The position numbers were made by a program, and so were the translations under genes. This document shows positions 16,356-38,059 of a stretch of DNA of 59,142 nt, one piece after another (the stretch's first letter is position 1; every line of letters starts with the position of its first letter). Under the pieces are notes generated by a model that did not search any database, was not told the origin of the DNA, and worked only from the letters and a program-made list of their open reading frames with translations. Source of the stretch: Arthrobacter globiformis (lineage in GTDB: Bacteria > Actinomycetota > Actinomycetes > Actinomycetales > Micrococcaceae). The stretch lies in contig NZ_QLNP01000088.1 of NCBI RefSeq assembly GCF_003261175.1, positions 1 to 59,142 on the forward strand, read 5' to 3'.

Positions 16356-16369
16356 ACCGTCCGTCTTAC

Positions 16370-19168: not shown

Positions 19169-19209
19169 GTAATGTCCCTTCAAATTGGGCGAATGGTTTG
19201 ACCATACTA

Positions 19210-20382: not shown

Positions 20383-20415
20383 TGACGGCTCGCCGAGGCG
20401 CAGGGAGCTGAACCG

Positions 20416-21279
20416 ATGCAGACCAATTTGTCAGCACCACCTCGCACACAACCACGACTGTCAGCTCCGAAAGTGGTGCGGACTGCCGACGTGAAAGCCC
20501 AAGCACGAATCGGTCGGGTCGCGGTGGTCGTGGCGGCCCTGATCGTCTGGGAAGTCCTAACCCGATTCGGCCTAATCGACAGCGATTTCGTTTCCACTCC
20601 GTTGGCCGTGGGCGTGGCGTTCACAGAGATGCTGCGCAGCTCGGAAGTATTGTCGGCGTTGGCCAGCACAGGGGGAAATATCCTCTTGGCATTCGTCATC
20701 GGTACGGTTATTGGCGTCATAGCCGGGACCGTGATGGGCCTGTCCAAAACGTTGTGGCAGGCCTACTCGGCCCCATTGTTGTTCCTGATGTCCACGCCGA
20801 AGTCGATATTCCTGCCGATTTTCATCCTCTTGTGCGGCATCGGTTCCACGTCTGCCGTTGTCTTCGGCGCGTTCGAAGCGGCGGTTTTCGTAACTATCAA
20901 CGTGGCCGCAGGCATGGCGCTCGTCGAGGATCGCCACATGAAGGTGGCACGTGCATTCAAAGCGTCCTGGGCCCAGACCATCCTTGCCGTGGTGCTGCCT
21001 TCTGCGCTTCCCGGGATCTTTACGGCCCTGTGGTTCGGAATCCGCCACGCCTTCATCGGGGTTCTAATCGCGGAACTGTGGGCTTCTTCGGACGGGGTTG
21101 GGGGACTGATCAGGGTCTACGCGGAACAACTCCACACTGACAAGACCCTCGCCCTAATGTTGGCAGTCACCATTCTCGCCATTATTGCGGGCACTATCTG
21201 GAATCACTTAGAAACACGGCTGACGCGATGGCGGCAAAGCTCCGCTGCCGGCGCCACAACAACAACCGCGACAAGTTAG
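20416..21279 (+). CDS. SsuC-type ABC transporter permease (first of two)
   Basis: A 287-residue inner-membrane permease with about six membrane helices after a polar 35-residue N-terminal tail. The EAA-type coupling loop is seen around RHMKVARAFKASWAQTILAV, followed by VLPSALPGIFTALWFGIRHA. It has AGGGAG eight bases before the ATG and lies 33 bases after the binding-protein gene. SsuC-family permeases normally work as homodimers; here a distinct second permease is encoded at 22099, suggesting a heterodimeric channel. Confidence 0.9.
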   Translation: MQTNLSAPPRTQPRLSAPKVVRTADVKAQARIGRVAVVVAALIVWEVLTRFGLIDSDFVSTPLAVGVAFTEMLRSSEVLSALASTGGNILLAFVIGTVIGVIAGTVMGLSKTLWQAYSAPLLFLMSTPKSIFLPIFILLCGIGSTSAVVFGAFEAAVFVTINVAAGMALVEDRHMKVARAFKASWAQTILAVVLPSALPGIFTALWFGIRHAFIGVLIAELWASSDGVGGLIRVYAEQLHTDKTLALMLAVTILAIIAGTIWNHLETRLTRWRQSSAAGATTTTATS

Positions 21280-21289
21280 GTAAACAGCA

Positions 21290-22090
21290 ATGCGAATGTC
21301 CATCAACGATGTTTCAGTCACGTTCACGCGTGCCGGATCGACGGTCGAAGCACTCAAAGATATTAACTTGTCGCTGCACGAAGGAGAATTCGTAGCCCTT
21401 CTTGGTCCAAGCGGTTGCGGCAAGTCCACGCTGTTGACTTGTTTGGGAGGGCTGATGACGCCCACAAAGGGCGAGATCATCGTCGGCGAGTCAGTTGTAG
21501 AAAACCCAGATCCCCGAAGGGCCGCCTTCGTCTTTCAAGACTATTCCCTGTTGCCTTGGAAAAACATTCTGGACAATGTCGGCGTCGGTTTGCGGTTCGC
21601 CGGAGTCGGGAAACAGGAACGGCGGGAGCGCAGTCAGGAACTGCTCGAGATGATGGGATTGTCCCAGTGGGGAGAATCGCATCCGGGACAGCTGTCAGGC
21701 GGTATGCAGCAGCGCGTGGCGGTGGCCAGAGCTTTGGCGATGGATCCGTCAATCCTGCTCATGGACGAGCCTTTCGGTGCACTGGACGAACAAACCCGGC
21801 GTTCGCTGGGCGAAAGCATCTCGACAGTTCTGACAGAGAACAAGCAGACGGTCGTTCTGGTCACCCACAGCCTTGATGAGGCCATCTACTGGGCGGATCG
21901 CGTCATAGTCATGTCCGCGCGCCCTGGCCGAATCATGGCCGAGGTCCAGATCCGGCAGCCTCGGCCACGTCCACTCGAATTTATCGCTCAAGAAGATTTC
22001 GCTCAATTGCGTTCCCAGCTCTTCTTGATGCTGAATGAGGCCATGGGGCACGACCAGCAGGCCGTTTCGCTGGAAACGCAGGGAGCATAG
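21290..22090 (+). CDS. SsuB/TauB-type ABC transporter ATP-binding protein
   Basis: A 266-residue ATPase of the nitrate/sulfonate/taurine importer family. It has Walker [10 protein letters not shown] (about residues 44-52), the Q-loop [12 protein letters not shown], the signature [15 protein letters not shown] and Walker [13 protein letters not shown], followed by the H-loop [16 protein letters not shown]. All key residues are intact. It lies between the two permease genes, with gaps of 10 and 8 bases, so the four importer genes form one transcription unit. Confidence 0.93.
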
Positions 22091-22098
22091 GGAATTCG

Positions 22099-22881
22099 AT
22101 GAAGGAACACAAAAACTCCCCGCTGGTATGGCCACTACGGGCCCTTGGGCTCGGGGCGTTGCTTGGTGTTTGGGCTTTTGGAAATGGTCCAGGTGGGATT
22201 TCGCCGCTGGTACTGCCTACTATCCCCAGGGTGGTGGAAGCGCTCGGGGAAGCACTGTCGCAGTTCTCGACATATGAAGCGGCGGCAATCACATTCGGTG
22301 AAATCCTCGCCGCATTCATCCTCGCCGCGGTGTTCGGCCTTGCAGCGGGCTTCTGGGCGGCGAGAACACCTTTGCGGATGCAGGTTTTCCAATCAATCTT
22401 TGTCTGGGGTTACCTCGCTCCATTGATCCTCTTCTACCCGATCTTTATTCTGTCCTTCGGAACGGGAGTAGGGTCCAAAATTGGTTACGGGGCAGTCAGC
22501 GCCTTCTTCCCAATCGCCTATAACTCGTTGCGGGCCTTTGCTACAGTGCAGCCTACGATGCTGAAGGTGGCCAAGGCGTTCGGCGCCAGCTCATTCCAGA
22601 CCGACTTCCTGATCAAGTTGCCCAGTGCGTTGCCGCTTATCAGTTCCGGAGTTCGCATCGGTGCCGGCGCCTCAATGATTACGGTCATTTTCGCCGAGAT
22701 GCTTGCCTCGACTGCAGGACTTGGGTACCAACTGGCTCTGAACAGTCAAACCTTCGCCGCACCCCAGGCCTTTGCCATGATCATTCTGCTCATGGCCCTC
22801 GTAGGGGTGCTTCAGGGATTGGTCAACCTCCTGCTTACGCCTAGGCGCGATCGAGGAAAAATTACCAATATCGCCCACTAA
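22099..22881 (+). CDS. SsuC-type ABC transporter permease (second of two)
   Basis: A 260-residue six-helix permease of the same family as 20416-21279 but clearly divergent from it. Coupling-loop residues are around TMLKVAKAFGASSFQTDFLI, followed by KLPSALPLISSGVRIGAGAS. It begins eight bases after the ATPase stop. Having two non-identical permeases with one ATPase suggests a heterodimeric membrane channel; alternatively each could form its own channel. Confidence 0.9.
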   Translation: MKEHKNSPLVWPLRALGLGALLGVWAFGNGPGGISPLVLPTIPRVVEALGEALSQFSTYEAAAITFGEILAAFILAAVFGLAAGFWAARTPLRMQVFQSIFVWGYLAPLILFYPIFILSFGTGVGSKIGYGAVSAFFPIAYNSLRAFATVQPTMLKVAKAFGASSFQTDFLIKLPSALPLISSGVRIGAGASMITVIFAEMLASTAGLGYQLALNSQTFAAPQAFAMIILLMALVGVLQGLVNLLLTPRRDRGKITNIAH

Positions 22882-26490: not shown

Positions 26491-26530
26491 TTGACAGCCG
26501 CGGCTACTGAAGGGCATTATGGTTAGACCA
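26491..26530 (+). promoter_or_regulatory. Promoter and GntR-type operator (site A) of the ferredoxin/Rieske operon
   Basis: A -35 TTGACA (26491-26496) is followed after 18 bases by a -10 CATTAT (26515-26520). The 11-bp inverted repeat TGGTTAGACCA (26520-26530) begins on the last base of the -10 and covers the expected transcription start. Its TGGT-N3-ACCA form matches FadR/FCD-type GntR operators. AGGAGG at 26536-26541 and the ATG at 26547 follow at once, giving a leader of only about 20 bases. A bound repressor would block polymerase directly. Confidence 0.75.
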
Positions 26531-26546
26531 TTAGCAGGAGGTTTAG

Positions 26547-26870
26547 ATGGTCAAGATTTCGTATGTCAGTGCCGCGGGCACAACCAATGTCGTTGACGGT
26601 GAGACCGGCGACTCGGTGATGTCTGCTGCTCTCCGCAATGGAGTAGCCGGCATCATCGGCGAGTGTGGTGGGAACAACTCCTGCGCTACTTGCCACGTAT
26701 GGGTACGCGAAGAATTCTGGGACGCCGTCGGGGCCCCAGGCGACATAGAGGCGGACCTGATCGACATGGGCGTCTCTGAGCCGCGCGATTGCAGCCGCCT
26801 CGGATGCCAGATTGTGCTCGAAGAGAAACTCGACGGTCTGGTCGTCGACCTGCCCCCCACTCAGCCCTAA
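26547..26870 (+). CDS. [2Fe-2S] ferredoxin (adrenodoxin/putidaredoxin type)
   Basis: A 107-residue electron carrier. Cluster ligands are Cys40, Cys46, Cys49 and Cys87 (GECGGNNSCATCHVWV and SRLGCQIV), the C-x5-C-x2-C...C pattern of vertebrate-type ferredoxins. An extra Cys82 is not a usual ligand. It is the first gene of the operon at 26547-31125, directly under a GntR-type operator, and precedes the Rieske oxygenase by 87 bases. It should shuttle electrons from the FAD reductase at 35381 to that oxygenase, making a three-component system, since no reductase gene of the PDR type is in this operon. Confidence 0.93.
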   Translation: MVKISYVSAAGTTNVVDGETGDSVMSAALRNGVAGIIGECGGNNSCATCHVWVREEFWDAVGAPGDIEADLIDMGVSEPRDCSRLGCQIVLEEKLDGLVVDLPPTQP

Positions 26871-26957
26871 ATCTCCCACCCGGGTGTTAGGTGCACGTAA
26901 AACCCGGACAACAGTGAGTAACTCTCGACTCCGGTCAGGACGAAAGGATCCTTCGCA

Positions 26958-28238
26958 ATGCTGCGTACGGACATTAATGAATTGTTGGCCCAGACGGGTC
27001 CGCGAACTCCCATGGGCGACCTGTTCCGCCGCTACTGGCAGCCGGTGCTGCTCGCAGAGGAACTCCCTGAGAACGACTGCCCGCCGGTACGCGTGAAGGT
27101 GCTCTCCGAGCGTCTCATCGCCTTCCGTGACTCCGAAGGGCGCTACGGCCTGATGGACGAGTTCTGCGCGCACCGCGGTGTTTCGCTGTGGTTCGGTCGT
27201 AACGAAGAAGGCGGCCTGCGCTGCCCGTACCACGGCTGGAAGTACGATGTCACCGGCCAAGCCGTCGCGGTCCCGAGCGAGCCGACGACGAGCAACTTCT
27301 GCGCCAACGTCAAGCTGAAGTCCTACCCGATGGTCAAGCGAGGCGACGTGCTCTTCGCTTACCTTGGCGACCCTGCCGCTCAGCCGCCGCTGCCTGAGTG
27401 GGAAGCCTACACCGTTCCGGACGGCCAGGTCTTCACCTCAAAGCGCCTGCAGGAGTGCAACTGGCTCCAGGCTCTTGAGGGCGGCATCGACTCGAGCCAT
27501 GTCACCTTCCTGCACGGCGGCAACTTGGAAAGCGACCCGCTCTTCAAGGGATCCAAGGGCAACGAGTACAACAAGGGCGATCTCAAGCCCTTCTTTGAGG
27601 TGGTCGACTCCGAAGGCGGCCTGCTGATCGGCGCCCGCCGCAACGCTGAAGAAGGTAAGTACTACTGGCGCGTGACACCGTGGGTACTGCCGAACTTCAC
27701 GATGGTTCCCCCGCGTGGCGACCACCCCGTCCACGGTCACTTCTGGGTGCCGATCGACGACGACAACTGCTGGGCATACAGCTTCGACTACCACCCCACC
27801 CGCCAGCTCACCGAAGCCGAGGTCGCTGCGATGCGCGCCGGTAAGGGCGTCCACAGCGCGAACGACCCGTCCTATCGCCCGCTGGCGAACAAGGACAACG
27901 ACTACCTGATGGACCGTGAGTCCCAGAAACGCGGCGAAAACTACTCGGGCATCGAGGGGATCGCGCTTCAGGACTCCTCGCTGCAGGAGTCAATGGGCCC
28001 CCTCGTCGACCGGACCAAGGAACGCCTCGTCGCCACCGACGCCGGCATCATCAAGGCGCGCCAGAAACTCTACAAGGCGGTCAAAGCGCTGCAGGACGGC
28101 GTCGAGCCCACAGGCAACCGCGCCAAGGACCAGAAGGTTCGCTCGGTAGCGATCGTGCTCCCGGCCGATCAGTCCTTCGTCGAGGGCATCGGCGAAGCCA
28201 TGGTCGCCGAACCTGCCAAGCCGCACACCTCGGTCTGA
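26958..28238 (+). CDS. Rieske [2Fe-2S] aromatic oxygenase, alpha subunit
   Basis: A 426-residue ring-hydroxylating oxygenase paralogous over its full length to the one at 13311-14594. Rieske ligands are Cys70, His72, Cys89 and His92. The mononuclear iron motif is EGGIDSSHVTFLHGG (His-x4-His). The start ATG 26958 follows AAAGGATCC. No beta subunit is encoded. Electrons should come from the ferredoxin just upstream and the ferredoxin reductase at 35381, unlike the paralogue, which is paired with a one-piece PDR reductase. The family points to an aromatic or heteroaromatic carboxylate as substrate. The C-terminal third includes the shared KDNDYLMDRE segment. Confidence 0.92.
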   Translation: MLRTDINELLAQTGPRTPMGDLFRRYWQPVLLAEELPENDCPPVRVKVLSERLIAFRDSEGRYGLMDEFCAHRGVSLWFGRNEEGGLRCPYHGWKYDVTGQAVAVPSEPTTSNFCANVKLKSYPMVKRGDVLFAYLGDPAAQPPLPEWEAYTVPDGQVFTSKRLQECNWLQALEGGIDSSHVTFLHGGNLESDPLFKGSKGNEYNKGDLKPFFEVVDSEGGLLIGARRNAEEGKYYWRVTPWVLPNFTMVPPRGDHPVHGHFWVPIDDDNCWAYSFDYHPTRQLTEAEVAAMRAGKGVHSANDPSYRPLANKDNDYLMDRESQKRGENYSGIEGIALQDSSLQESMGPLVDRTKERLVATDAGIIKARQKLYKAVKALQDGVEPTGNRAKDQKVRSVAIVLPADQSFVEGIGEAMVAEPAKPHTSV

Positions 28239-28241
28239 GCC

Positions 28242-28757
28242 ATGTCTGACCACGATCACGACCACGCGACTGGTCCGCGCTCGGTGCCGTCTGGCCCGAG
28301 CTCGTGCGCTGAGGCTGCGACCGCCAAGGAAGCGGCCTACCGAATCGACTACCCTCTCTCGGCCGCGCGGAACACCCGCGTCGTCGCCCTCGACGACGAG
28401 GCGGAGCGAATCATTCGCTCCGCGGCGTTGCTTGAGTGGGGTCAGGCTCGTTTCTTCTCCATAACCGACCCGGGCGAGGTGCTGGCCGAGGTAGACGGCT
28501 CGAACGTGCCCCTGGATGAGGTCATGACCGACACCAACACGGTGGTCATGGTGGCCAGTTCCGGCGAGAACGCGACGGCGGTCGCCGCCATCGGTGACCT
28601 CGCCCGTGAACGCGGCATCATGACGGCAGGACTGGTCGTCACCCCGGGTGCGCTCACCAGTGACGCCCTCTTCCACCTCCGTCCCCACGCCCGGATTCTG
28701 CTGGTCCCGGCGGAAGAAGACGATCTGATTGAACTGCTCAGGGCCACCCGCGCATGA
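28242..28757 (+). CDS. Small Rossmann-like protein with His/Asp-rich N terminus, Rieske-associated, unknown function
   Basis: A 171-residue protein three bases after the Rieske gene. Residues 2-8 read SDHDHDH, a potential metal-binding tail. The core has TRVVALDDEAERIIRSAALL, then TNTVVMVASSGENATAVAA, IGDLARERGIMTAGLVVTPG and HARILLVPAEEDDLIELL. This alternation resembles the second half of the FtsZ GTPase domain (the region after the glycine loop) but without GGGTGTG. The protein at 11574-12089 has the same size, pattern and gene context. Because both accompany Rieske oxygenases, a shared accessory role is plausible; no activity can be assigned. The stop overlaps the next gene in ATGA. Confidence 0.78.
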   Translation: MSDHDHDHATGPRSVPSGPSSCAEAATAKEAAYRIDYPLSAARNTRVVALDDEAERIIRSAALLEWGQARFFSITDPGEVLAEVDGSNVPLDEVMTDTNTVVMVASSGENATAVAAIGDLARERGIMTAGLVVTPGALTSDALFHLRPHARILLVPAEEDDLIELLRATRA

Positions 28758-29560
28758 GCACCATGACCATCCCCCAGCTCCAAGCCATGAAGACGGCCGG
28801 CCGGAAGAGTGCGTGCATCGTCGCATGGGACTACCAGATGGCACGCATCGCCGACCGAGCTGGCGCGGACATCATTTCCGTGGGCGACTCCGTAGGCGTC
28901 AACCTGTGGGGCCAGTCCCATCCGTTGGAGATCACCATGGAGGAGATCCTCGTGGCCGCCAAGGCGGTGCGGCGTGGCGTCGACAACGCGCTCATGAGCT
29001 GCGACTTCCCCTTCGGCCCCCTTCAGGAGGGTGTCAAAGAGGCTGTCAGTGCAGCCATCCGGCTCGCGAAAGAGGCCGGCATTGATCTCGTCAAGCTCGA
29101 CGGCGCCGCCGACTTCCCCGAGGCGGTCGAGGCCGTCACACGCGCCGGGGTGCCCGTCTTTGCGCAGTTCGGTATCACACCGCAGACGGCACTCAAGTAC
29201 GGCGTCGCGTATTCACAGGCCGAAGGCGCCCTGGTCCCGGACGAGATGGTGGAGCAGTTCGTCACTGAGGCCAAGCGGCTCGAATCCGCGGGTGCCGTCG
29301 CGCTCAACTTCACGAATTCAGGTCCCGTGGTGGGGCCAGCAGTGGTAGACGCCGTTTCCGTCCCGGTGCTCGGCGGTTTCGGCGGAGGACCCTGGCTTGA
29401 CGGCCGGATCCGGATGTCCACCGCCGCAATCGGCTACAACGCCAACTGGATCGACAAGGAACCCACCACCTACGCCAACGTGGGGCGCGTTGCCTATGAC
29501 GCCCTCACCGAGTGCATCGCCGATATTCGCGGGGCGCGGCATCTCCGCGGCCAAGGTTAA
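28754..29560 (+). CDS. PanB-like (ketopantoate hydroxymethyltransferase superfamily) protein with altered active site
   Basis: A 268-residue TIM-barrel protein of the PanB/PEP-mutase group. The metal-binding motif GDSVG is intact (residues 44-48), as is the AWDY segment and VKLDGA (PanB VKLEGG). PanB's catalytic Glu in the VLE motif is replaced: the segment reads VALNFTNSGPVV. The usual GHIGLTPQ reads AQFGITPQ, losing the His. True pantothenate synthesis is therefore unlikely. The protein probably uses the barrel and metal for another C-C bond reaction, for example retro-aldol or lyase chemistry on a ring-derived keto acid. The gene is translationally coupled to the gene before it (ATGA) and lies in a catabolic operon without panC. 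Confidence 0.82.
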   Translation: MSTMTIPQLQAMKTAGRKSACIVAWDYQMARIADRAGADIISVGDSVGVNLWGQSHPLEITMEEILVAAKAVRRGVDNALMSCDFPFGPLQEGVKEAVSAAIRLAKEAGIDLVKLDGAADFPEAVEAVTRAGVPVFAQFGITPQTALKYGVAYSQAEGALVPDEMVEQFVTEAKRLESAGAVALNFTNSGPVVGPAVVDAVSVPVLGGFGGGPWLDGRIRMSTAAIGYNANWIDKEPTTYANVGRVAYDALTECIADIRGARHLRGQG

Positions 29561-29572
29561 TAGGAGCCAGTC

Positions 29573-30421
29573 ATGCCCGTTATCGAAATTGATGGAATCA
29601 CCACGCGCTACGAAACGGTGGGTGGCGGCCCGCCGCTGCTGATGTTCAGCCCGGGCGGATTCGACTCCACCCTGGAAAACTGGACCACTTTCGGCCGCTA
29701 CCGCGACCTTGGCTTCGTTGATGCACTCAAGGACAGTTACACCTGTGTGGTCTTTGACCGGCGCGAGTCCGGACAGTCCGGCGGTCGAGTGGAGCGCCTC
29801 ACCTGGGACCGTTATGTGACCCAGGCGCTGGGGCTCATCGATCACCTCGGCTACGACACCGTCCACACCATGGGCGGCTGTGTCGGATGCTCGACGGCGG
29901 CCGCACTCGCCGTGCAGCACCCGGAACGCGTTCGCAGCATGGTGCTGTTCTCTCCTGCCGGTGGACCGCAGTACCGCATGGGCCAGCACCACCGCTTCAC
30001 CCAGCACCTCGCTTTCGCGATGGAGCACGGCATGCAGGCCGTCGTCGAGTTGGCCCGTTCCAGCACCGCCGGATTCAGCAAGGACCCACGCGTCGGGCCC
30101 TGGGCGGCGCCGCTGCGCAGCAGCGAGGAGTTCGCGGCGGCTTACGCAGCCATGGACGTGAAGAAGTACGAACTGATGGTTAGCGGAACCGTGCGGGGTC
30201 TCTTCGACCGGGACACGGTGCCGGGCGTCGAGGCCGAGGATCTCATGACCCTCCACGTGCCCGGTCTGATCGTTCCGGGTCAGGACAGTTCCCACGCACC
30301 ATCCGCCGCGCGCTACCTCGAAGAATGCCTCCCCGTTCACGAGTACTGGGACGTTCCCGTTGTCGAACAGACTGCGGAAACGGCCCCCGCCCGGATTCGG
30401 GCGTTCCTCGAGCAGCACTGA
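29573..30421 (+). CDS. Alpha/beta-fold hydrolase with a Cys nucleophile elbow
   Basis: A 282-residue cytosolic hydrolase. The oxyanion region is FSPGGFDSTLENW near residues 25-36, and FDRRESGQSGG follows the second strand. The nucleophile elbow is GGCVG at residues 101-105, so Cys103 stands where Ser is usual, as in dienelactone hydrolase. The catalytic His is probably in PGQDSSHAPSAARY, about residue 243. Enzymes of this kind open lactones, thioesters or vinylogous C-C bonds. In this operon it may serve the role LigI has in the protocatechuate 4,5-route, hydrolysing a lactone before LigJ. AGGAG precedes the ATG; the stop overlaps the next ATG in TGATG. Confidence 0.85.
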   Translation: MPVIEIDGITTRYETVGGGPPLLMFSPGGFDSTLENWTTFGRYRDLGFVDALKDSYTCVVFDRRESGQSGGRVERLTWDRYVTQALGLIDHLGYDTVHTMGGCVGCSTAAALAVQHPERVRSMVLFSPAGGPQYRMGQHHRFTQHLAFAMEHGMQAVVELARSSTAGFSKDPRVGPWAAPLRSSEEFAAAYAAMDVKKYELMVSGTVRGLFDRDTVPGVEAEDLMTLHVPGLIVPGQDSSHAPSAARYLEECLPVHEYWDVPVVEQTAETAPARIRAFLEQH

Positions 30422-31125
30422 TGCCCCGCCTCGTGCTGCTGCGCCACGGTGAGAGCGTCGCGAACGCCGACGATGTATTCGCCGGTTGGCTCGACGTTTC
30501 CCTCACCGAGCGCGGCCGCACCGAGGCGCGCGCCGCCGCCGGGAGGCTTGCGGGGCTGTGTCCCGACACGGTGCACACCTCCGTTCTCGCACGTGCGGTG
30601 GAAACGGCCCGCCTGCTGATCGAGGAAGCCGGCTGGGACCTGGCGCCGAGCGCGCACTGGCGCCTGAATGAGCGGCATTATGGAGCCCTCCAGGGCCTGG
30701 TAAAGGACGAAGCCCGGGCGCACTTCGGCGCTGGAAAAGTTCAAGGGTGGCGTCGCGGCATCGACGCCCGACCGCCCCAAGCAGACGACGCCGTACTAGC
30801 CGCTCAGCGCGCCGATCCGCGCTACGCCGCGCTTCCTGAAGCGGCGGCCATTGCCGGGGAGAGCCTTGCGGATGTCGTAGAACGCATGACACCATACTGG
30901 CGCAATTTCTTGACCCCGGAACTCGCCGCGGACCGAACCGTGGTAGTGGTGGGGCATGGCAACGCGCTGCGGGCCCTGATGCACCTATGCACGGGGGCGC
31001 CCCTGGATGAGACCGGCTCCATCGAGCTGGGCACCGCGGTCCCGGTCACTATTCAGGCGCAGCTTCTAGCTCCATCCGAGTTCGCTGATCATCCCCACGC
31101 CGTCTGCGTGCTACCCGCCCCCTAA
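30421..31125 (+). CDS. Histidine phosphatase family protein (2,3-BPG-dependent phosphoglycerate mutase-like)
   Basis: A 234-residue protein starting at ATG 30421 in a TGATG overlap. The catalytic phosphohistidine motif is LRHGESVAN (residues 6-14). LNERHYGALQGL is the dPGM signature, and the second catalytic His is in VVVGHGNALRALMHLC. The mutase-type ERHYG segment suggests ancestry from GpmA, but a house-keeping glycolytic enzyme is unexpected at the end of an inducible aromatic operon. A phosphatase or phosphotransfer step on a pathway intermediate, or a domesticated GpmA copy, are the options. Confidence 0.85.
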   Translation: MPRLVLLRHGESVANADDVFAGWLDVSLTERGRTEARAAAGRLAGLCPDTVHTSVLARAVETARLLIEEAGWDLAPSAHWRLNERHYGALQGLVKDEARAHFGAGKVQGWRRGIDARPPQADDAVLAAQRADPRYAALPEAAAIAGESLADVVERMTPYWRNFLTPELAADRTVVVVGHGNALRALMHLCTGAPLDETGSIELGTAVPVTIQAQLLAPSEFADHPHAVCVLPAP

Positions 31126-31127
31126 AC

Positions 31128-31390
31128 CGTGTTTCCAGGCACAGTTCCGCCAGAGCCAGCGCTTGATCGTCGCCGAGGACTTTGCTGCCGAGGACCATGA
31201 CGTTCGCCTCATTGTTGCCCCGCGAGATCTCCACCGCGAAGCGGCTGCAGGTGAGGCCCGCGCGCACCCCCCCGAATCTTGACGACGAGGCCGGGGCGCC
31301 CGTGAGCCCCGCCGTCGAACGTTCATGGCCACGCTCGCCGAGCCACGGGAGCAGCTGAGCCTCGAGCTGAATACGTCGTGGTCGGCTTGG
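31128..31390 (-). pseudogene. Remnant of an RpiB/LacAB-type sugar-phosphate isomerase gene with internal deletion
   Basis: Reading the minus strand, QLEAQLLPWLGERGHE matches the N-terminal helix of RpiB proteins. After a short scrambled stretch, VRAGLTCSRFAVEISRGNNE, NEANVMVLGSKVLGDDQA and LALAELCLETRF match the C-terminal half (the SREHNNANVLALGARV region). The middle, with the catalytic Cys-GTG loop, is missing, and a G-run near 31268-31274 probably holds a frameshift. It lies in the gap between the convergent phosphatase and decarboxylase-like genes. It is not a copy of the intact gene at 47343, being clearly divergent. Confidence 0.6.
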
Positions 31391-31394
31391 GGAC

Positions 31395-32342
31395 TTAGCC
31401 AATGAGCCCGCGAACGGACTCCGCGAAGAGCTCCTCCACCTTCACGGGCTTGGTCAGGATGTGCTGCTTGCTTGCCTGTTCGATGAGGTCCACGAGCACA
31501 GCACGGTTGGGTTCGATGCCGTACGGGAGCGGATCGTCCCAGCCCGTGGTCTCGAGCACCTCCAGGTGCAGTCGGTCCGCAGAATCGGGCTCGGCGATCG
31601 CACCGGCCTTGAGGTCGGCCACGTACTGACGCTTGGACTCGGCAAAGGCCTCGAACACGGCCATCGCTACATCAGGGTGGGCCTCGAGGACCTCGTCCCT
31701 GATGACCACAAGGTGGTTGATCGGGTAGAGGCCTGTTTCGCGCAAGGCAGCGAGGGCGACGTCGTTCGCGTTGGGGATGAGCGGGGCAAGATCAGGGCAG
31801 TCGCTCTTGACGCCGATCGCGGCCTCGAGCTCGCCGTCGAGCACCATCTGCTCGAGAGTCTTGCCAGCGGGGGCGGAAGTGACGTTCGACGGCGGTGTGT
31901 ACGCCTCCACGTGCTCGTCGCCGGAGCGGACCCACGTGACGGAGTCGAGGTCAAGGCCGTACTGATTTTCCATAATCGAGCGGGCCCAGACGCCGGTGGT
32001 CACGGTGTAGCCGCGGTTCACGCCGACGCGCTTGCCCACGAGCTGTCCGGGATCGGTGATGTCCGAACCGCGGCGGACCACGATCGCGTTGTGGTGGAAT
32101 CCGCGGACCAGGAAGATCGGCAGGGCGGTGAACTTCACGCCGTGTTCCCTGGCGGTGAGGTAGGTGGTGAGCGCCATTTCGCTGACGTCGAAGGCAAGCT
32201 CGCGGACCATGCGGCGGAATCCCTTGACGAGGACGGGCACCTCCTCGAAGTCGAGGAAGTAGCCTTCAGGGGCAATCGTACCGTCCTTGACACGGCTGTT
32301 ATTCCCTTGGGTTCGGCTGAGAGCGGAAAGCTGGACGGACAT
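31395..32342 (-). CDS. 4,5-dihydroxyphthalate decarboxylase-like protein (periplasmic-binding fold, cytosolic)
   Basis: A 315-residue protein of the family containing Pht5, 4,5-dihydroxyphthalate decarboxylase, whose fold is a type-2 periplasmic-binding protein. Recognisable segments are FDVSEMALTTYLTAREHG, FTALPIFLVRGFHHNAIVV, LVGKRVGVNRGYTVTTGVWA and GLYPINHLVVIRDEVLEAHP. There is no signal peptide or lipobox, which favours an enzyme over a transport component. It would decarboxylate a dihydroxy aromatic di-acid to a catechol acid after Rieske oxygenation and dehydrogenation. It is divergent from the MDR dehydrogenase operon and shares operator site B (32390-32400). A substrate other than dihydroxyphthalate is quite possible. 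Confidence 0.8.
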   Translation of the reverse strand: MSVQLSALSRTQGNNSRVKDGTIAPEGYFLDFEEVPVLVKGFRRMVRELAFDVSEMALTTYLTAREHGVKFTALPIFLVRGFHHNAIVVRRGSDITDPGQLVGKRVGVNRGYTVTTGVWARSIMENQYGLDLDSVTWVRSGDEHVEAYTPPSNVTSAPAGKTLEQMVLDGELEAAIGVKSDCPDLAPLIPNANDVALAALRETGLYPINHLVVIRDEVLEAHPDVAMAVFEAFAESKRQYVADLKAGAIAEPDSADRLHLEVLETTGWDDPLPYGIEPNRAVLVDLIEQASKQHILTKPVKVEELFAESVRGLIG

Positions 32343-32389
32343 ACGGCCTCCGGTGAGGTCTAGTGAGGGTCAGTACTTGCATGGTAGAT

Positions 32390-32400
32390 TGGACTAACCA
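32390..32400. promoter_or_regulatory. GntR-type operator (site B) between the decarboxylase-like gene and the MDR operon
   Basis: TGGACTAACCA is the reverse complement of TGGTTAGTCCA. For the plus-strand operon a candidate -10 TAGATT (32385-32390) ends on the first base of the operator, the same geometry as at sites A and C; no clear -35 is seen. The site is in the middle of the 99-bp divergent gap, so one repressor could control both directions. Confidence 0.7.
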
Positions 32401-32441
32401 TTTTGCCAAGGCCTGTGGGCCGTGCTCGAGGGAGCCAGTAG

Positions 32442-33590
32442 ATGTCTGAGAAGGTGCTTGCGGCGGTCCGGGTTGCTCCGGGAACCACCGAAATGCGCGA
32501 ATTTGACCGGCCGAATATCGACGATGAGTCGGCCCTGTTGAGGATCGAGGTCGCAGGAATCTGCGGCACGGATGTGAAGCTTTATTCCAAACCACCCAGG
32601 ACCCCGGCCACGCAGGGCCCGGTGATCATGGGCCATGAAAACGTCGGCGTCATCGTGGAGGCCGGCGAAAAGTTCAAGAAGCGCCAAGGACTCGAAGAAG
32701 GCGATCGCGTCTTCGTGGAGCACTATGTTGCCTGCTTCAGCTGCGAGTGGTGCCGCATTGGTGAATACCGCCACTGTGAGGCCACTGACTGGCGCACCAA
32801 CGCGGACGCGCGCCGTTTCGGATACACCTCCGCTCACTTCCCCGGAACTCTCTGGGGCGGATTCTCGGAATACATGTATCTGCCGTGGAACGCGGTGCTC
32901 CACAAGATCCCGGAAACCGTAACCGCGGAAGAAGCCGGCTTGGTCATGCCGCTATCCAACGGCATCGAATGGGCGCTCCTTACCGCCGGTGTCGGCTACA
33001 ACGACACCGTGCTGATCCAAGGTCCCGGCCAGCAGGGCCTTGCCCAACTTGTTGCCGCGAAAACCGCCGGCGCTGCCCAGGTGATCGTCTCCGGCACCAC
33101 GCGTGACAAAGCCCGTTTCGAGCTGGCCAAGGAACTCGGCGCCGATGAGGTCATCGACGTTCTCACCGAGGACCCGCGCGAGAAGATCATGGATCTGACC
33201 AACGGCCGGGGCCTGGACTTCGTGCTCGACTGCACCTCCCGCGCCGGAACCGCTCCGGTGCTGCTCGGCGTCGACGTCCTCAAGCGCCGCGAGGGCACAC
33301 TGCTCATCCAGGGCGAGCTGGCGGCTTTCCCCGATTTCCCGGTCAAGCAGGTTACCGAGAAGGCCATCACCATCAAATCGGCCCGCGGCCACTCTTTCAA
33401 CGCCTGCGAACTTGCGGTGGCTCAGCTCGCCTCCCACCGTTATCCGTTGGAAAAGCTCGCCACGCACCGCTACGGCATCGACCAAGTGGACCACGCCATC
33501 CGCGTGCTCGCCGGCGAAACCGATGAGGATGCCATCCACGTCTCGATGATGCCCGAAATGATCGGCCAGCCCGGCGGAGCGGTGCGCTGA
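32442..33590 (+). CDS. Zinc-dependent MDR alcohol dehydrogenase
   Basis: A 382-residue medium-chain dehydrogenase, paralogous in context to 12118-13287. Catalytic zinc residues are in GICGTDVKLYSK and MGHENVG. The structural-zinc Cys cluster is CFSCEWCRIGEYRHC (four Cys). The Rossmann segment is VLIQGPGQQGLAQLVAAKTA. It heads the plus operon with LigK- and LigJ-type genes, and its stop overlaps the next start in TGATG. The likely role is oxidation of a cis-dihydrodiol or alcohol made by the Rieske oxygenase, or, less likely, the semialdehyde oxidation done by LigC in the 4,5-cleavage route. Confidence 0.88.
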   Translation: MSEKVLAAVRVAPGTTEMREFDRPNIDDESALLRIEVAGICGTDVKLYSKPPRTPATQGPVIMGHENVGVIVEAGEKFKKRQGLEEGDRVFVEHYVACFSCEWCRIGEYRHCEATDWRTNADARRFGYTSAHFPGTLWGGFSEYMYLPWNAVLHKIPETVTAEEAGLVMPLSNGIEWALLTAGVGYNDTVLIQGPGQQGLAQLVAAKTAGAAQVIVSGTTRDKARFELAKELGADEVIDVLTEDPREKIMDLTNGRGLDFVLDCTSRAGTAPVLLGVDVLKRREGTLLIQGELAAFPDFPVKQVTEKAITIKSARGHSFNACELAVAQLASHRYPLEKLATHRYGIDQVDHAIRVLAGETDEDAIHVSMMPEMIGQPGGAVR

Positions 33591-34297
33591 TGGCCGGCCT
33601 TGTTGTGACTAACCCGCCGCGTGCCGAACGGGACATTGTGGACGCCTTCGCCAGCTACGGTGTCGCCACCATTCATGAGGCCCAGGGTCGCGAGGGCCTG
33701 CTCGGCTCGCACATCAACCCGGTGCAGGCGGGAGCCCGGATCGCCGGCAACGCCGTCACCGTCACGGTCGCCCCGGGCGACAACACCACCATCGGCGTTG
33801 CGGTGGAGCAATGCACCGACGGCGACGTGCTGGTTGTCGCGCCCACCGCGCCGTGCGATATGGGCTACTTCGGCGACCTCCTTGCCACCTCGCTCAAAGC
33901 ACGCGGCGTGCGAGGACTCGTCATCGAAGCAGGGGTCCGGGATGTGGCCGATCTTCAGGAGATGGGCTTCCCGGTATGGTCCAAAGCCGTCTCGGCCGAG
34001 GGCACCGGCAAGGGAACCCTTGGCGACATCAACGTCCCCATCTCGATCGCCGGTCGGCTTGTTAACCCCGGTGACGTGGTGATCGCCGACGACGACGGCG
34101 TCGTCGTCGTGCCTCGCCACAAGGCAGCCGAGGTACTCGCCGCCTCGAAGGCGCGCGACGAGAAGGAAGCAAAGGCACGTGCGCGGTACCAGGCTGGCGA
34201 GATCGCCTTGGACGTCAACAACATGCGTCCGTTGATTGAAAAGGCTGGCGTCCATTACGTCTCTTACGAGGACTGGACCCAGGAGGCTCAGAAGTGA
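33590..34297 (+). CDS. ligK: 4-carboxy-4-hydroxy-2-oxoadipate aldolase / oxaloacetate decarboxylase (LigK/ProA, RraA-like fold)
   Basis: A 235-residue class II aldolase-type enzyme that splits 4-carboxy-4-hydroxy-2-oxoadipate into pyruvate and oxaloacetate, the last step of protocatechuate 4,5-cleavage and gallate routes. The metal/substrate motif is GDLLATSL at residues 95-102, followed by Arg117-Asp118 in VIEAGVRDVADL, the G-x-L-x(~20)-R-D signature shared by LigK, ProA and GalC. The next gene is a LigJ-type hydratase that makes its substrate, which raises confidence above a generic RraA call. Starts overlap in TGATG upstream and in GTGA downstream, so translation is coupled. Confidence 0.88.
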   Translation: MAGLVVTNPPRAERDIVDAFASYGVATIHEAQGREGLLGSHINPVQAGARIAGNAVTVTVAPGDNTTIGVAVEQCTDGDVLVVAPTAPCDMGYFGDLLATSLKARGVRGLVIEAGVRDVADLQEMGFPVWSKAVSAEGTGKGTLGDINVPISIAGRLVNPGDVVIADDDGVVVVPRHKAAEVLAASKARDEKEAKARARYQAGEIALDVNNMRPLIEKAGVHYVSYEDWTQEAQK

Positions 34298-35289
34298 TCA
34301 TCGACATCCACGGCCACTACACCACGGAGCCTGCACAGCTGTTCGCCTTCCGTAAGGCCCAGCTCGCCGGGGAGAACGGCACGCTTGCGGCGATCAGCGA
34401 CGACGAGCTTCGCGAAAGCGTTGAGCCGAACCAGCTGCGTGTGCTGCGGGAGCGCGGCGGTGACCTCATGGTCTTCTCCCCGCGGGCTTCGGGCATGGAA
34501 CATCACGTCCCGGATGCCGGGACCGCGAACGGCTGGGCGCAGGCCTCGAACGACCTGGTGCATCGAGTAAGTGAGTTGTACCCGGAGCACTTCGCGCCGA
34601 TGGCCCAGCTGCCACAGACGCCGGAGGGCAACCGTACTGGGGTCATTGCCGAGCTGCGACGCACGGTTACCGAGCTTGGCTTCGTGGGCGCGAACCTCAA
34701 CCCGGATCCTTCAGGGACCTGGGCGGGAAAGCCCCTGACGGACGAGTCCTGGTTTGACCTCTACGAGGTCATCCAGGAACTGGACATCCCCGTCATGATC
34801 CACGTTTCCACGGCATGCAATCCGAACTTCCATACGCTCGGGGCGCACTATCTGAACGCGGACACAAGCGTTTTCATGCAGCTGCTGCAGTCGGACCTCT
34901 TCCAGCGTTTCCCGGGACTGCGTTTCGTGATCCCGCACGGCGGCGGCGCCACCCCGTACCACTGGGGCCGTTACCGGGGCCTGTCAATGCGTAACGGCTG
35001 GCAGGATCCCTCCGAGCTGCTGAAGAACGTCTTCTTCGACACCGCTGTATACCACCAGCCGGGCATCGACCTGCTGACCCGCGTTGTCCCGTCCCGCAAC
35101 ATCCTCTTCGCTTCCGAGATGCTCGGTGCCGTGCGTGGCGCGGACCCGGAGACCGGGGTGGAGTGGGACAACACCCTGGTCTACGTCAAGAGTGCCGGTC
35201 TGTCTGACGAGAATGAACGCCGGATCCTTCTCGAGAACGCCCTTGAGGTCTATCCGGGACTGGCCGCGCGCGTTCCCGCAGCTTCCTGA
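34294..35289 (+). CDS. ligJ: 4-oxalomesaconate hydratase (LigJ family, amidohydrolase superfamily)
   Basis: A 331-residue metal-dependent TIM-barrel enzyme that hydrates 4-oxalomesaconate to 4-carboxy-4-hydroxy-2-oxoadipate. The HxH metal motif is MIIDIHGHY (His6, His8). The segments SVEPNQLRVLRERGGDLMVF, ELGFVGANLNPDPSG and RFVIPHGGGATPYHWGR are as in Sphingobium LigJ from memory of the family. Further metal residues are expected in VMIHVS and IPHGGG. The start is GTG 34294, overlapping the aldolase stop. A strong bidirectional terminator follows at 35311. The ring-cleavage enzymes that normally precede this step are not in the window. Confidence 0.9.
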   Translation: MIIDIHGHYTTEPAQLFAFRKAQLAGENGTLAAISDDELRESVEPNQLRVLRERGGDLMVFSPRASGMEHHVPDAGTANGWAQASNDLVHRVSELYPEHFAPMAQLPQTPEGNRTGVIAELRRTVTELGFVGANLNPDPSGTWAGKPLTDESWFDLYEVIQELDIPVMIHVSTACNPNFHTLGAHYLNADTSVFMQLLQSDLFQRFPGLRFVIPHGGGATPYHWGRYRGLSMRNGWQDPSELLKNVFFDTAVYHQPGIDLLTRVVPSRNILFASEMLGAVRGADPETGVEWDNTLVYVKSAGLSDENERRILLENALEVYPGLAARVPAAS

Positions 35290-35310
35290 GCCGAGAATCC
35301 CGACAATAAC

Positions 35311-35348
35311 GACGGGCCCCTCACCTCCGCGGAGGTGAAGGGCCCGTC
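35311..35348. terminator. Strong bidirectional terminator hairpin
   Basis: A 38-base palindrome with arms GACGGGCCCCTCACCTCCGC and its complement GCGGAGGTGAAGGGCCCGTC, containing one C-A mismatch. It sits 22 bases after the LigJ stop and 33 bases before the end of the convergent ferredoxin reductase gene. The following CTTG is only a weak T-tract, but stem length and position make termination of both operons likely. Confidence 0.85.
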
Positions 35349-35380
35349 CTTGCTGAGTGGCGCACAGGCTGCCGGGTGGA

Positions 35381-36643
35381 TCAGACTGCCGGGGCCGCCA
35401 CGAGGTCCTTGAGCGATATGTTCGTGTCTCCGGCGAGCTCAGCGGGAATGGTGCCGCCGGTGCCGAGGAGTTTACGGACCGCCATGTAGTCACGCGGGGC
35501 ATTGATGGAGTCGATCGCGATCAGACGTCCGGCAGTGTAGTAGAGAACCGAGAACTGCTCCGTGTCCGGCTCGCCACGGACAACGACTTCGTCGTATCCG
35601 GTGGAGAGGCCGGCGATCTGGAGCTTGAGGTCCGCCTGGTCTGACCAGAACCACGGCACGGCGGCCTGGCCCTGCGGGCGTCCCACGAGCGTTGCTGCGG
35701 CGATCTGCGCCTGAGCAATCGCGTTCTGGACCGACTCAATGCGGTGGCGGCCCTCGCCGGTAAGAGGGTGAGGAAGCGTGGCGCAGTCACCAGCGGCCAC
35801 GATGTTCGGGTTGCTCGTGCGTGCCAGCGCGTCCACGACGATTCCGCGATCAATCTCCAGGCCGAGCTTCGCGGCGAGATCGGTATGCGCCGCGAGTCCG
35901 ATGCCCACGAGGACGATGTCGGCTGGCAGCACCGTGCCGTCGGTGATGCGGACGCCGGTCACGGTGTTCTGCGCGTTGCCCTCGATGGCGTCGATGCCGG
36001 TGGACAGGAGCACCTTGGTGCCGCGGCGCTGGTGCGCTGCCAGGTAGAACGCCGAGACCTCCGGGGCCACGGCTCGGCCCAGAAGCCGATCGGCGACGTC
36101 GACCACGGTTACGTCCTTCCCAGCAGCCGTCGCGGCGGCAGCCGCCTCTAGCCCGATGAACCCCCCACCGATGACGACGACATTCGACGCCGCCTCCAAG
36201 CGGCTACGCAGATCATCAGCGTGCGCAATATCGCGCAGCACGCAAACGCCGTCGAGATCGGCGCCGCGAATCGGGAGCCGGCGCGGCGTGCCACCCACGG
36301 CGAGTGCGAGTCGCCCGAAGGGGATCTTCTCTCCCGTGCTGGTGACGGCGGCGCCGCTGCCCGAGCCTGGGGCGTCAAGCTCGATGTTCTCGATGTGGGT
36401 GGAGAGGCGTAATTCGATCCGCTTCTCGGTGTACCAGTCCAGTGAGCGGAAGCCGAGGGACTCGACCGTTGTCTTGCCAGCCAAGTAGGCCTTGGAGAGT
36501 GGCGGGCGCTGATACGGGGCGATGTCTTCGTTGCCGACCAGGATGATGGGATCGATGTCACCGAATTCGCGCAACGACGTTGCAATCTGCAAGCCGGCCT
36601 GGCTGGCGCCGACGATGAGGGTTCCGGAAGCGGAGATGGTCAT
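35381..36643 (-). CDS. FAD-dependent ferredoxin reductase (putidaredoxin/rhodocoxin reductase type)
   Basis: A 420-residue flavoprotein that transfers electrons from NAD(P)H to a [2Fe-2S] ferredoxin. The FAD-binding motif is VGASQAG at residues 11-17, the NAD-binding motif is VVVIGGGFIGLEAAAAA, and the second FAD motif is NIVAAGDCATLPHP. The C-terminal reductase domain begins near WFWSDQADLKLQIAGLS. It is the missing third component of the system whose ferredoxin and oxygenase are at 26547-28238; it is transcribed separately but from a promoter with the same operator (site C). AGGAGG precedes the ATG. Confidence 0.92.
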   Translation of the reverse strand: MTISASGTLIVGASQAGLQIATSLREFGDIDPIILVGNEDIAPYQRPPLSKAYLAGKTTVESLGFRSLDWYTEKRIELRLSTHIENIELDAPGSGSGAAVTSTGEKIPFGRLALAVGGTPRRLPIRGADLDGVCVLRDIAHADDLRSRLEAASNVVVIGGGFIGLEAAAAATAAGKDVTVVDVADRLLGRAVAPEVSAFYLAAHQRRGTKVLLSTGIDAIEGNAQNTVTGVRITDGTVLPADIVLVGIGLAAHTDLAAKLGLEIDRGIVVDALARTSNPNIVAAGDCATLPHPLTGEGRHRIESVQNAIAQAQIAAATLVGRPQGQAAVPWFWSDQADLKLQIAGLSTGYDEVVVRGEPDTEQFSVLYYTAGRLIAIDSINAPRDYMAVRKLLGTGGTIPAELAGDTNISLKDLVAAPAV

Positions 36644-36654
36644 TTAGTCCTCCT

Positions 36655-36670
36655 TGGTTAGTCCATTATA
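36655..36670 (-). promoter_or_regulatory. Promoter -10 and GntR-type operator (site C) of the ferredoxin reductase gene
   Basis: On the minus strand a perfect -10 TATAAT (36670-36665) ends on the first base of TGGACTAACCA (36665-36655), the reverse complement of TGGTTAGTCCA. AAGGAGG and the ATG at 36643 follow within 12 bases. The geometry is identical to site A. No good -35 is visible, which suggests a weak or activator-free promoter relying on its consensus -10. Confidence 0.75.
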
Positions 36671-37238: not shown

Positions 37239-37958
37239 TTAGGGGGTGGGTGTGCGAACGCGCTCGGCAGTCCGGCTGAGGTGCTCAGTCATGACCGTCC
37301 GTGCCGCTTCCACGTCGCGAGCTTCGATGGCCTCGGCAAGCCTGCGGTGCTCTGCAACGCCCTGCTGGCCCATGGGCGCGGAAATGTGCGATTCCTCGAG
37401 CGACATTCGCATGGGACCGTTGAAGCTCTGCATCAGCATCTCGATCGCTGGGTTATGGGTGCACTGTGCGATCCGGGTATGGAACGCCGCGGAGTGCTCC
37501 ACATTGTACTGACCCGCCTTAACAGCCTGCTCGGCCTCCTCGACCATCGCAAAAAGAGCCCCGATGTCCTCCTCCGTAGCTCGCTCAACCGCCAGGGGCA
37601 GGGTACCGAGCTCGACGATGAAGCGCGCTTCGGTGACGTTGTGCGCCGTGACAGGCGCGAGCGAAATGAGGTCGGCCAGGCCCACGCCGAGTCGCTCGGC
37701 AGTAGGGCTGGTGAGGAAGGCGCCGCCATGAGAGCCGACGCGGATGGTGAGGAGCCCGTTAGTCTCAAGCACCCGTAATGCCTCGCGGACAGTCACACGA
37801 CTGACGTTAAAACGCTGGCACAACTCGCGTTCACTGGGCAGCCGATCGCCCGGCTGCAACTTACCCCCACGAATGAGAACTTTGATCTGGTCGACTATGA
37901 CCTGGGAAGCCCGGTCAACGCTGACGGGGAGGAACATGTCCGAGGTGTTGGTGGCCAT
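37239..37958 (-). CDS. GntR-family transcriptional regulator, FCD (FadR) subfamily
   Basis: A 239-residue repressor. The N-terminal winged HTH (about residues 20-80) has GGKLQPGDRLPSERELCQRF, NVSRVTVREALRVLETNGLL and a wing in RVGSHGGAFL. The C-terminal FCD ligand domain has EARFIVELGTLPLAVERATE and HSAAFHTRIAQCTHNPAIEM, including the His residues that usually bind a metal and a carboxylate ligand. I prefer ATG 37958 (AGGGGAAC upstream) to an earlier in-frame start at 37979. The operator type TGGT-N3-ACCA found at three nearby promoters matches this subfamily, so this protein is the likely regulator of region IV. The ligand is probably an aromatic or pathway acid. Confidence 0.9.
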   Translation of the reverse strand: MATNTSDMFLPVSVDRASQVIVDQIKVLIRGGKLQPGDRLPSERELCQRFNVSRVTVREALRVLETNGLLTIRVGSHGGAFLTSPTAERLGVGLADLISLAPVTAHNVTEARFIVELGTLPLAVERATEEDIGALFAMVEEAEQAVKAGQYNVEHSAAFHTRIAQCTHNPAIEMLMQSFNGPMRMSLEESHISAPMGQQGVAEHRRLAEAIEARDVEAARTVMTEHLSRTAERVRTPTP

Positions 37959-38059
37959 TGTTCCCCTGTCGACCGTCAATCAGACGGCTTGGCGTTTGGC
38001 GATGCGATCAGAACAAAAAACTCGGTCTCCCGAGTTAACGACGAGATAAAAAGCTTTGG

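Follow-up and report, generated by a model that had tools for sequence, protein, structure and literature searches.

A widespread LigJ/LigK-ending gene module of Arthrobacter globiformis with no recognizable ring-cleaving dioxygenase

The locus

Aerobic breakdown of aromatic compounds usually proceeds by hydroxylation, after which a dioxygenase cleaves the ring. Here, we describe a catabolic gene module of Arthrobacter globiformis in which profile searches of the module genes with Pfam and NCBIfam models found no ring-cleavage dioxygenase, LigC or LigI. The module lies on a contig of 59,142 nucleotides (NZ_QLNP01000088.1, or C57; hereafter the window) of a 4.88 Mb genome that is 99.98% complete. 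It encodes a Rieske oxygenase, a zinc MDR dehydrogenase, a homolog of 4,5-dihydroxyphthalate decarboxylase (DHPdec-like), the aldolase LigK and the hydratase LigJ, together with a PanB-like protein (PanBL), an alpha/beta hydrolase (ABH), a phosphoglycerate-mutase-like (PGM-like) protein and a small protein. A preliminary description of the sequence had listed these genes, all of which were recovered as open reading frames at or near their proposed positions, and had remarked on the same missing enzymes; we add to its set the genes for a 2Fe-2S ferredoxin (Fdx) and a ferredoxin reductase (FdR). Our tentative reading, which we regard as possible though short of probable, is that the module forms one closed regulon for the uptake and full breakdown of an isophthalate-like acid with a third acidic group, with the ring opened without a ring-cleaving dioxygenase.

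Conservation across phyla

A scan of a genome collection with PanBL gave 198 relatives; the loci counted here are the best 80. Many of these end at contig boundaries, and 39 have at least 8 kb on either side of the PanBL gene. The 80 loci span Actinomycetota, Alpha-, Beta- and Gammaproteobacteria, Acidobacteriota and Eremiobacterota, and contain genes for the Rieske oxygenase (59 loci), the small protein in either form (56), ABH (69), the DHPdec-like protein (62), the MDR dehydrogenase (57), LigJ (51) and LigK or an HpcH aldolase (52). All six other core genes accompany PanBL in 27 of the 39 well-flanked loci, and full sets were found in Actinomycetota, Proteobacteria and Acidobacteriota. The recurrence of the same set across phyla puts the gene arrangement far outside what chance would produce. 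Among the acidobacterial loci L037 is the fullest, and the eremiobacterial locus has only PanBL and a DHPdec-like gene. Closer to home the module is rare, with PanBL orthologs in 2/197 genomes of the family (E ≤ 1e-60) and 5/396 of the phylum (E ≤ 1e-55), the present genome included in both counts; the nearest named relatives, from Arthrobacter, are 96 and 93% identical. A plasmid search with PanBL gave 398 records, mostly annotated panB, all below 60% identity (best among those listed 33%), and cluster PanBL was not among them. Three Rhizobiales plasmids carry related genes for the Rieske oxygenase (67–70% identity), ABH (54–57%) and the MDR dehydrogenase (58–60%), plus LigJ, RraA and a DHPdec-like protein, and the small-protein gene was detected in two of the three.

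The module varies in its surroundings. A version in Phyllobacterium (L119:1-28837) has two EutA-like genes, two bicupins, a thiamine pyrophosphate (TPP) enzyme, a tripartite transporter and a nickel/cobalt transporter with NikR. Near proteobacterial versions lie a CobW-type metal chaperone gene (L041, L055, L086 and others; eight loci) and a small conserved gene (cluster c19; eight loci). Two bicupin families adjoin the module in 19 and 14 of the 80 loci (e.g. L048:3728-4873 and L073:6809-7855), in several of them accompanied by EutA-like, class II aldolase and HIBADH-like genes. Glyoxylate as a product in Rhizobiales, by way of glyoxylate carboligase and tartronate-semialdehyde reductase, found no support: the TPP enzymes score far better against other models, and they reached no model cut-off. 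In the window itself, an isochorismatase-like gene (24641-25384) was considered as a pathway member and set aside, with no match in the G180 region and occurrence in only 3/80 loci. The roughly 1.1 kb between this gene and the module (25388-26520) hold no convincing gene and may be decayed DNA.

Table 1. Features of the module and its surroundings in the window (loci are the 80 defined above)
Feature	Position	Strand	Remarks
Operator-like palindrome ATGGTTTGACCAT	19193..19205		Upstream of ABC importer
ABC importer (substrate-binding protein, permease, ATPase, permease)	19312..22881	+	Probable uptake system; named by eye; palindrome upstream; start of the substrate-binding protein gene ambiguous (19312 or 19357)
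Operator-like palindrome ATGGTTAGACCAT	26519..26531		15 bp before ferredoxin gene; identical in A. pascens and Arthrobacter AZCC_0090
2Fe-2S ferredoxin (Fdx)	26547..26870	+	Named by eye; homolog in 30/80 loci
Rieske oxygenase alpha subunit	26958..28238	+	Isophthalate dioxygenase (IPDO) relative with R at IPDO position 249; single-subunit; LigXa_C domain
Small protein, 171 residues	28242..28757	+	Weakly FtsZ/SIS-like; putative companion of IPDO-type Rieske genes
PanB-like protein (PanBL)	28754..29560	+	KPHMT superfamily; catalytic-site changes
Alpha/beta hydrolase (ABH)	29573..30421	+	Invariant C103 replaces Ser
Phosphoglycerate-mutase/histidine-phosphatase-like (PGM-like) protein	30421..31125	+	Optional component
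4,5-Dihydroxyphthalate-decarboxylase homolog (DHPdec-like)	31395..32342	-	PDB 9jp7, 114 bits
Operator-like site ATGGTTAGTCCAA	32389..32401	- strand sequence	Between DHPdec-like and MDR genes
Zinc MDR dehydrogenase	32442..33590	+	Probable dihydrodiol dehydrogenase
LigK, RraA-type 4-carboxy-4-hydroxy-2-oxoadipate aldolase	33590..34297	+	NCBIfam matches
LigJ, 4-oxalomesaconate-hydratase-type amidohydrolase	34294..35289	+	PDB matches
Ferredoxin reductase (FdR)	35381..36643	-	Named by eye; homolog in 28/80 loci
Operator-like site TTGGTTAGTCCAT	36654..36666		10 bp before ferredoxin reductase gene
GntR-family regulator	37239..37979	-	Named by eye; homolog in 35/80 loci; candidate palindrome-binding protein

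LigJ, LigK and the remaining lig genes

The best PDB matches of LigJ are 4-oxalomesaconate hydratases (380 bits), followed at 166 bits by a family that we take to be LigY. Of 159 positions that are invariant in seven reference LigJs, 116 are kept in at least 90% of 38 cluster LigJs. H6, H8, H178, H223 and E284, to which we assign catalytic roles as in the solved enzymes, lie outside the changed positions, and orthology together with these conserved residues places the protein among the LigJ hydratases. The other 43 positions differ, including W19 (F in 37/38) and T190 (L in 31/38), which weighs on the assumption that the exact product is 4-oxalomesaconate. LigK scores 325 bits against NF006731 (cut-off 179) and 304.3 bits against TIGR02798, 0.2 below the cut-off of 304.5. 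An HpcH/HpaI aldolase gene occurs in 5/80 loci, and some betaproteobacteria may use its product in place of LigK.

The module thus has the LigJ and LigK of protocatechuate 4,5-cleavage, and lacks LigAB, LigC and LigI. Queries for LigAB, LigI and LigC from Arthrobacter keyseri found nothing in the 80 loci at E ≤ 1e-8, and match the lig operon of Streptomyces NBC_00046 (L003) at 71, 73 and 69%. Genome-wide, PF02900 (the LigB family) has no match in the present genome, in a search whose control was positive in 4/14 known genomes, and the A. keyseri LigI (E ≤ 1e-5) and LigC (E ≤ 1e-30) queries had no match in six genomes, in searches with no internal control. Two bicupin queries likewise had no match in the present genome, type I (VOC) extradiols and general cupins lying outside the genome-wide search. 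The preliminary description had offered as one option that the missing enzymes are encoded elsewhere; the null searches for LigB-family, LigC and LigI homologs lead us to reject this for the present genome, where the module's palindrome also marks no further catabolic operon.

A gene annotated as substrate-binding domain-containing accompanies LigJ and LigK in operons for gallate and protocatechuate (L004:11727-12428, L001:15921-16619, L114:6726-7433), much as the DHPdec-like genes do in the module. Binding-protein folds may serve as tautomerases next to LigJ, an idea of our own. In a Diaphorobacter locus (L121:12219-21209), a gene annotated as protocatechuate 3,4-dioxygenase instead resembles class III extradiols (57 bits, below cut-off); this locus also encodes an amidohydrolase that is weakly lactonase-like, LigJ, an HpcH aldolase and two DHPdec-like proteins.

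The Rieske oxygenase and its probable substrate

The best PDB match of the Rieske protein is the IPDO of Comamonas testosteroni KF1 (432 bits, 47% identity). According to PMC12445078, R234 and H257 of IPDO hold the two meta carboxylates of isophthalate and are both essential. Both residues are kept in the module Rieske protein, for which isophthalate dioxygenation is a putative activity. The nonpolar pocket with F249 seen in IPDO is not kept. Among the 58 Rieske proteins of the loci and the window, 56 have R249, the two outliers being second Rieske genes in L031 and L042, and these 56 agree at ten pocket positions, save V/I swaps at two and one F at the last. R249 and the same pocket are also found in all three Rhizobiales proteins, whereas F249 occurs in IPDO, in a second Rieske protein of the window and in the Rieske protein of plasmid pN1, encoded beside terephthalate-type genes. 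At the sequence level, R249 is what sets the module group apart from the isophthalate-type proteins compared.

Docking of a V178A/F249H IPDO variant, as presented in PMC12445078, places residue 249 near the carboxylate that is ortho to the R234-bound one in phthalate and para to the H257-bound one in terephthalate. Together with R234 and H257, the three basic residues would therefore match the pattern of benzene-1,2,4-tricarboxylate, by extrapolation from docking of a different enzyme. We regard as the probable substrate an isophthalate that bears a third acidic group, perhaps trimellitate (benzene-1,2,4-tricarboxylate), which would fit the pocket best. A polycarboxylate substrate would also suit the decarboxylase homologs, among them a PhtC ortholog in a Nonomuraea locus (306.6 bits, cut-off 200). 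Dipicolinate, lutidinate and chelidonate were considered as substrates and dropped: on paper only 2,4-pyridinedicarboxylate gives a branched C7 acid simply, and it needs no decarboxylase. Among the matches listed in a dipicolinate literature search, nothing was on point.

The second Rieske module of the window (10594-17790) was named by eye and from annotated relatives. It comprises a PDR-type reductase, a small open reading frame, MDR2, Rieske2 (F249), a double-length IclR-type regulator and an MFS transporter. Rieske2 is 96.5% identical on Arthrobacter p2MP and A. crystallopoietes plasmids and has a relative on Rhodococcus pN1; the module probably serves isophthalate degradation. Its MDR is 30% identical to that of the main module.

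PanBL, the cysteine hydrolase and the other module proteins

PanBL matches the Pfam family Pantoate_transf at 198 bits and falls below both NCBIfam KPHMT cut-offs (176.5 against 272 and 140 against 207.55 bits). Relative to PanB, and with residue roles assigned by us, E181 (which we take to be in E. coli numbering) is replaced by T187, the histidine of the HxGxTPQ motif by Q138 and E114 by D116. The family fold is kept, as are D45 and D84, presumably the metal-site aspartates. With its scores and without the catalytic Glu/His set, PanBL is not a KPHMT (PanB) proper, which bears out its earlier characterization as a PanB-like protein with altered residues.

ABH has an invariant cysteine (C103) at the nucleophile elbow, in line with the Cys-nucleophile hydrolase named in the preliminary description, and D238 and H241 are also invariant. 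It lacks the Ser-His-Asp triad of PcaD/BphD-type serine alpha/beta hydrolases, and its nearest NCBIfam models are PcaD-type enol-lactonases (53 bits, far under cut-off). The DHPdec-like protein aligns with 9jp7, a solved 4,5-dihydroxyphthalate decarboxylase, over 269 residues, including the family-conserved R80, H84 and H210, and the corresponding activity is putative.

The small protein has no Pfam match above threshold and a weak FtsZ/SIS resemblance. Very distant relatives (11–12 bits against its profile) lie beside Rieske2-type genes on p2MP and pN1, with another at 6 bits in the window at approximately 11.6–12.1 kb, so that it looks like a companion of IPDO-type Rieske proteins. As a ring-cleaving enzyme it was rejected, on account of only five invariant columns in 30 sequences and of its weak relatives in Rieske2-type modules that presumably make protocatechuate. 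The PGM-like (HisP-like) gene, which had been proposed as part of the route, is an optional component, with HisP-like genes in 14/80 loci. An RpiB-like gene is found in 24/80 loci; the idea that RpiB and HisP are interchangeable was dropped, as both occur together in nine loci.

Operator-like palindromes

In the window, operator-like sites precede the importer and mark three module promoters (Table 1). The exact form ATGGTNNNACCAT has three sites genome-wide, two of them in the window; the third (C31:128352) was rejected as an operator, since it falls within what by eye is the gene for ribosomal protein S6. A pattern derived from the window sites themselves, WTGGTTWGWCCAW, has five sites in 4.88 Mb against 0.7 expected from window base composition, and none for a reversed control. 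Four are the sites upstream of the importer and at the module promoters; around the fifth, on contig C42, 3 kb of sequence hold no catabolic gene. A. pascens has four WTGGTTWGWCCAW sites, three of them within the cluster and one at a distance of 11.5 kb on that contig; AZCC_0090 also has four, three of them within its cluster (reversed control: 0 and 1 per strand). Across the 80 loci, TGGTNNNACCA has 74 sites against 37 for its reversed control and, among the matches listed, several are found in other genera ahead of genes for MDR, Fdx, FdR or the Rieske protein. The GntR-family protein may bind these palindromes. Because they mark the importer and three module promoters, with one other site in the genome, the regulon seems closed, and in Arthrobacter it appears to be complete within the window, with no recognizable ring-cleaving dioxygenase.

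A proposed route and competing readings

On the reading that the module is a closed route with no ring-cleaving dioxygenase, the ABC importer would take up the aromatic acid, and the ferredoxin reductase and ferredoxin would supply the Rieske enzyme, which would dihydroxylate the ring. The MDR enzyme would oxidize the diol to a ketone, and ABH would open the ring, most likely by hydrolytic (retro-Claisen) C–C cleavage of this ketone. Where present, PanBL may act on the alpha-keto-acid/alpha-hydroxy-acid part, by isomerization or C–C cleavage. The decarboxylase homolog would strip one carboxyl, LigJ would hydrate the resulting 2-oxo-3-enoate, and LigK, or the HpcH-type aldolase in some betaproteobacteria, would release pyruvate. 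With trimellitate as substrate, simple arithmetic would give C9 = CO2 + pyruvate (C3) + 2-oxoglutarate (C5). What the sequences show is which genes are present and how widely they are conserved, the operator-like sites, the signature of the Rieske protein and the lack of LigAB, LigC and LigI homologs in our searches; the enzymatic steps are inferred, and those after the Rieske reaction are hypotheses. A bolder version, which we consider doubtful, is an aerobic pathway shared by several phyla that would serve benzene tricarboxylates or isophthalates of similar acidity. In it, one Rieske dihydroxylation and one dehydrogenation would suffice for hydrolytic opening by Cys-type ABH, with no ring-cleaving dioxygenase, followed by decarboxylation, LigJ and LigK to pyruvate and 2-oxoglutarate, with PanBL as a new KPHMT-superfamily C–C lyase or tautomerase.

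Several observations weigh against a closed, dioxygenase-free route. The strongest objection is chemical: a ketone beside a carboxylated carbinol should lose CO2 and re-aromatize, giving 4,5-dihydroxyphthalate and then protocatechuate, and in terephthalate and isophthalate pathways such ketones do so, according to PMC13040137. The chemistry of ABH is uncertain, because alignments of 22 and 27 proteins show no conserved histidine near the C-terminus. Conservation has gaps: in 12 of the 39 well-flanked loci between one and four core genes are absent, and five of these loci have Rieske, PanBL and ABH but no DHPdec-like protein, MDR, LigJ or aldolase. PanBL has no match in 45, 29 and 31 kb of the three Rhizobiales plasmids, which share the Rieske signature and hold ABH, MDR, LigJ, RraA and DHPdec-like genes, and this weakens the role in the route first suggested for it. 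The WTGGTTWGWCCAW count is partly circular, since the pattern was drawn from the window sites; two of these four differ from the first palindrome at two positions, and sequences that close to it are not in excess in the window (16 against 14.2 expected in shuffles), with 16 against 11.4 for a longer palindrome form at three mismatches. Finally, other ring-cleaving enzymes are at hand: intradiol genes in 6/6 genomes tested, PcaGH-type intradiol genes in 4/80 loci from three classes (that of L081, the sole one scanned, passes the PcaH cut-off with 303.6 against 296.4), a LigB-family gene in 37 of 40 further cluster genomes, and bicupins that, where they have operator-like sites in some other species, could be dioxygenases there.

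The chemical objection leads to the main rival, which we think rather unlikely. Here the module would be an upper pathway only, in which a benzene tricarboxylate (e.g. trimellitate via 4,5-dihydroxyphthalate) would pass through the Rieske, MDR and DHPdec-like enzymes to protocatechuate, to be cleaved by a housekeeping PcaGH, with ABH, PanBL, LigJ and LigK serving a side product or second substrate. This would follow the chemistry established for phthalate pathways (PMC13040137), the DHPdec-like and PhtC homologs fit it, and isophthalate-type Rieske and MDR genes occur both in the window and beside terephthalate-type genes on pN1. It can also draw on the PcaGH-type genes of the four loci and on the present genome, where two of four PF00775 (intradiol) matches, all outside the module, lie side by side on contig C31, next to genes that read by eye as beta-ketoadipate-pathway-like. 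However, none of these intradiol genes, the C31 pair included, has the module's operator-like site, and LigJ, LigK, ABH and PanBL are left without a role despite their common operator-like sites and conservation. The proposal in the preliminary description of an undescribed route from a ring fits the cross-phylum conservation and the absence of LigAB, LigC and LigI in the 80 loci, with PcaGH cleavage of protocatechuate as its rival.

Alternatively, the module could be the remainder of a conventional pathway whose ring-cleavage partner (LigB-family, bicupin or VOC) is unlinked and varies by species, a view we judge unlikely. In its favor, besides the 37 genomes above, a LigB-family gene is present in all five other cluster-bearing genomes first tested (five of six with the present genome counted), a bicupin at least 74% identical is found in 22/46 genomes, and, among the matches listed, five operator-like sites precede bicupin genes by 24–42 bp in four loci. 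Yet no LigB-family gene was found in the present genome, in A. pascens or in two metagenome-assembled genomes (the last three being the exceptions among the 40), one bicupin is absent from the present genome, A. pascens and AZCC_0090 and the other from the present genome, and in Arthrobacter none of the operator-pattern sites belongs to a gene of this kind.

Gallate cleavage yields 4-oxalomesaconate without LigC. More improbable still is a substrate with a ring oxygen (5-hydroxyisophthalate type), whose gallate-like product an unlinked dioxygenase, intradiol or otherwise, would cleave to 4-oxalomesaconate or its lactone, or whose dihydrodiol would be opened by a PanBL retro-aldol reaction, with ABH as lactonase before LigJ and LigK: a LigJ-LigK pair does occur in Caballeronia and Burkholderia operons whose annotation includes gallate dioxygenase, ABH is nearest to enol-lactonases and PanBL keeps its presumed metal-site aspartates, but the present genome lacks the LigB family to which gallate dioxygenases belong, R249 would suit a carboxylate better than a phenol, the decarboxylase would be superfluous and PanBL is not universal.

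Related systems and significance

The closest known lower pathway is protocatechuate 4,5-cleavage (lig/pcm) on pRE1 of A. keyseri 12B, which ends with the same enzymes (LigJ 58%, LigK 52% identical) and, like the region upstream of the module, has genes for an ABC importer and an isochorismatase-like protein in its vicinity. Unlike pRE1, the module lacks LigAB, LigC and LigI and has MDR, ABH, PanBL, the DHPdec-like protein and a single-subunit Rieske oxygenase. With isophthalate catabolism (iph of Comamonas testosteroni; the Rieske2-type modules of Arthrobacter p2MP and Rhodococcus pN1) it shares an IPDO-family single-subunit Rieske protein, a dehydrogenase and, for p2MP and pN1, a weakly similar small gene; it differs in having R249 rather than F249, a ferredoxin and FdR instead of a PDR-type reductase, and an attached lower pathway. 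The solved decarboxylase 9jp7 is a distant homolog with the same family-conserved residues, and PanB shares the TIM-barrel family of PanBL and differs at T187, Q138 and D116.

By title or abstract opening, no account of this module was found among the full-text literature matches listed, most subscription papers being outside the coverage, and no title listed for benzene tricarboxylates concerned their catabolic genes. No such route appears in section 2.3 of the phthalate review PMC13040137.

Isolates with fuller clusters include A. pascens DSM 20545, Nonomuraea jiangxiensis and Massilia niastensis. The module gives hints to the function of three families, i.e. PanB-like proteins, Cys-type alpha/beta hydrolases and the small Rieske companions. 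Benzene polycarboxylic acids derive from charcoal, humic matter and plastics, and a widespread LigJ/LigK-ending regulon without a ring-cleaving dioxygenase would mean either a new mode of ring opening or a new funnel for these acids.

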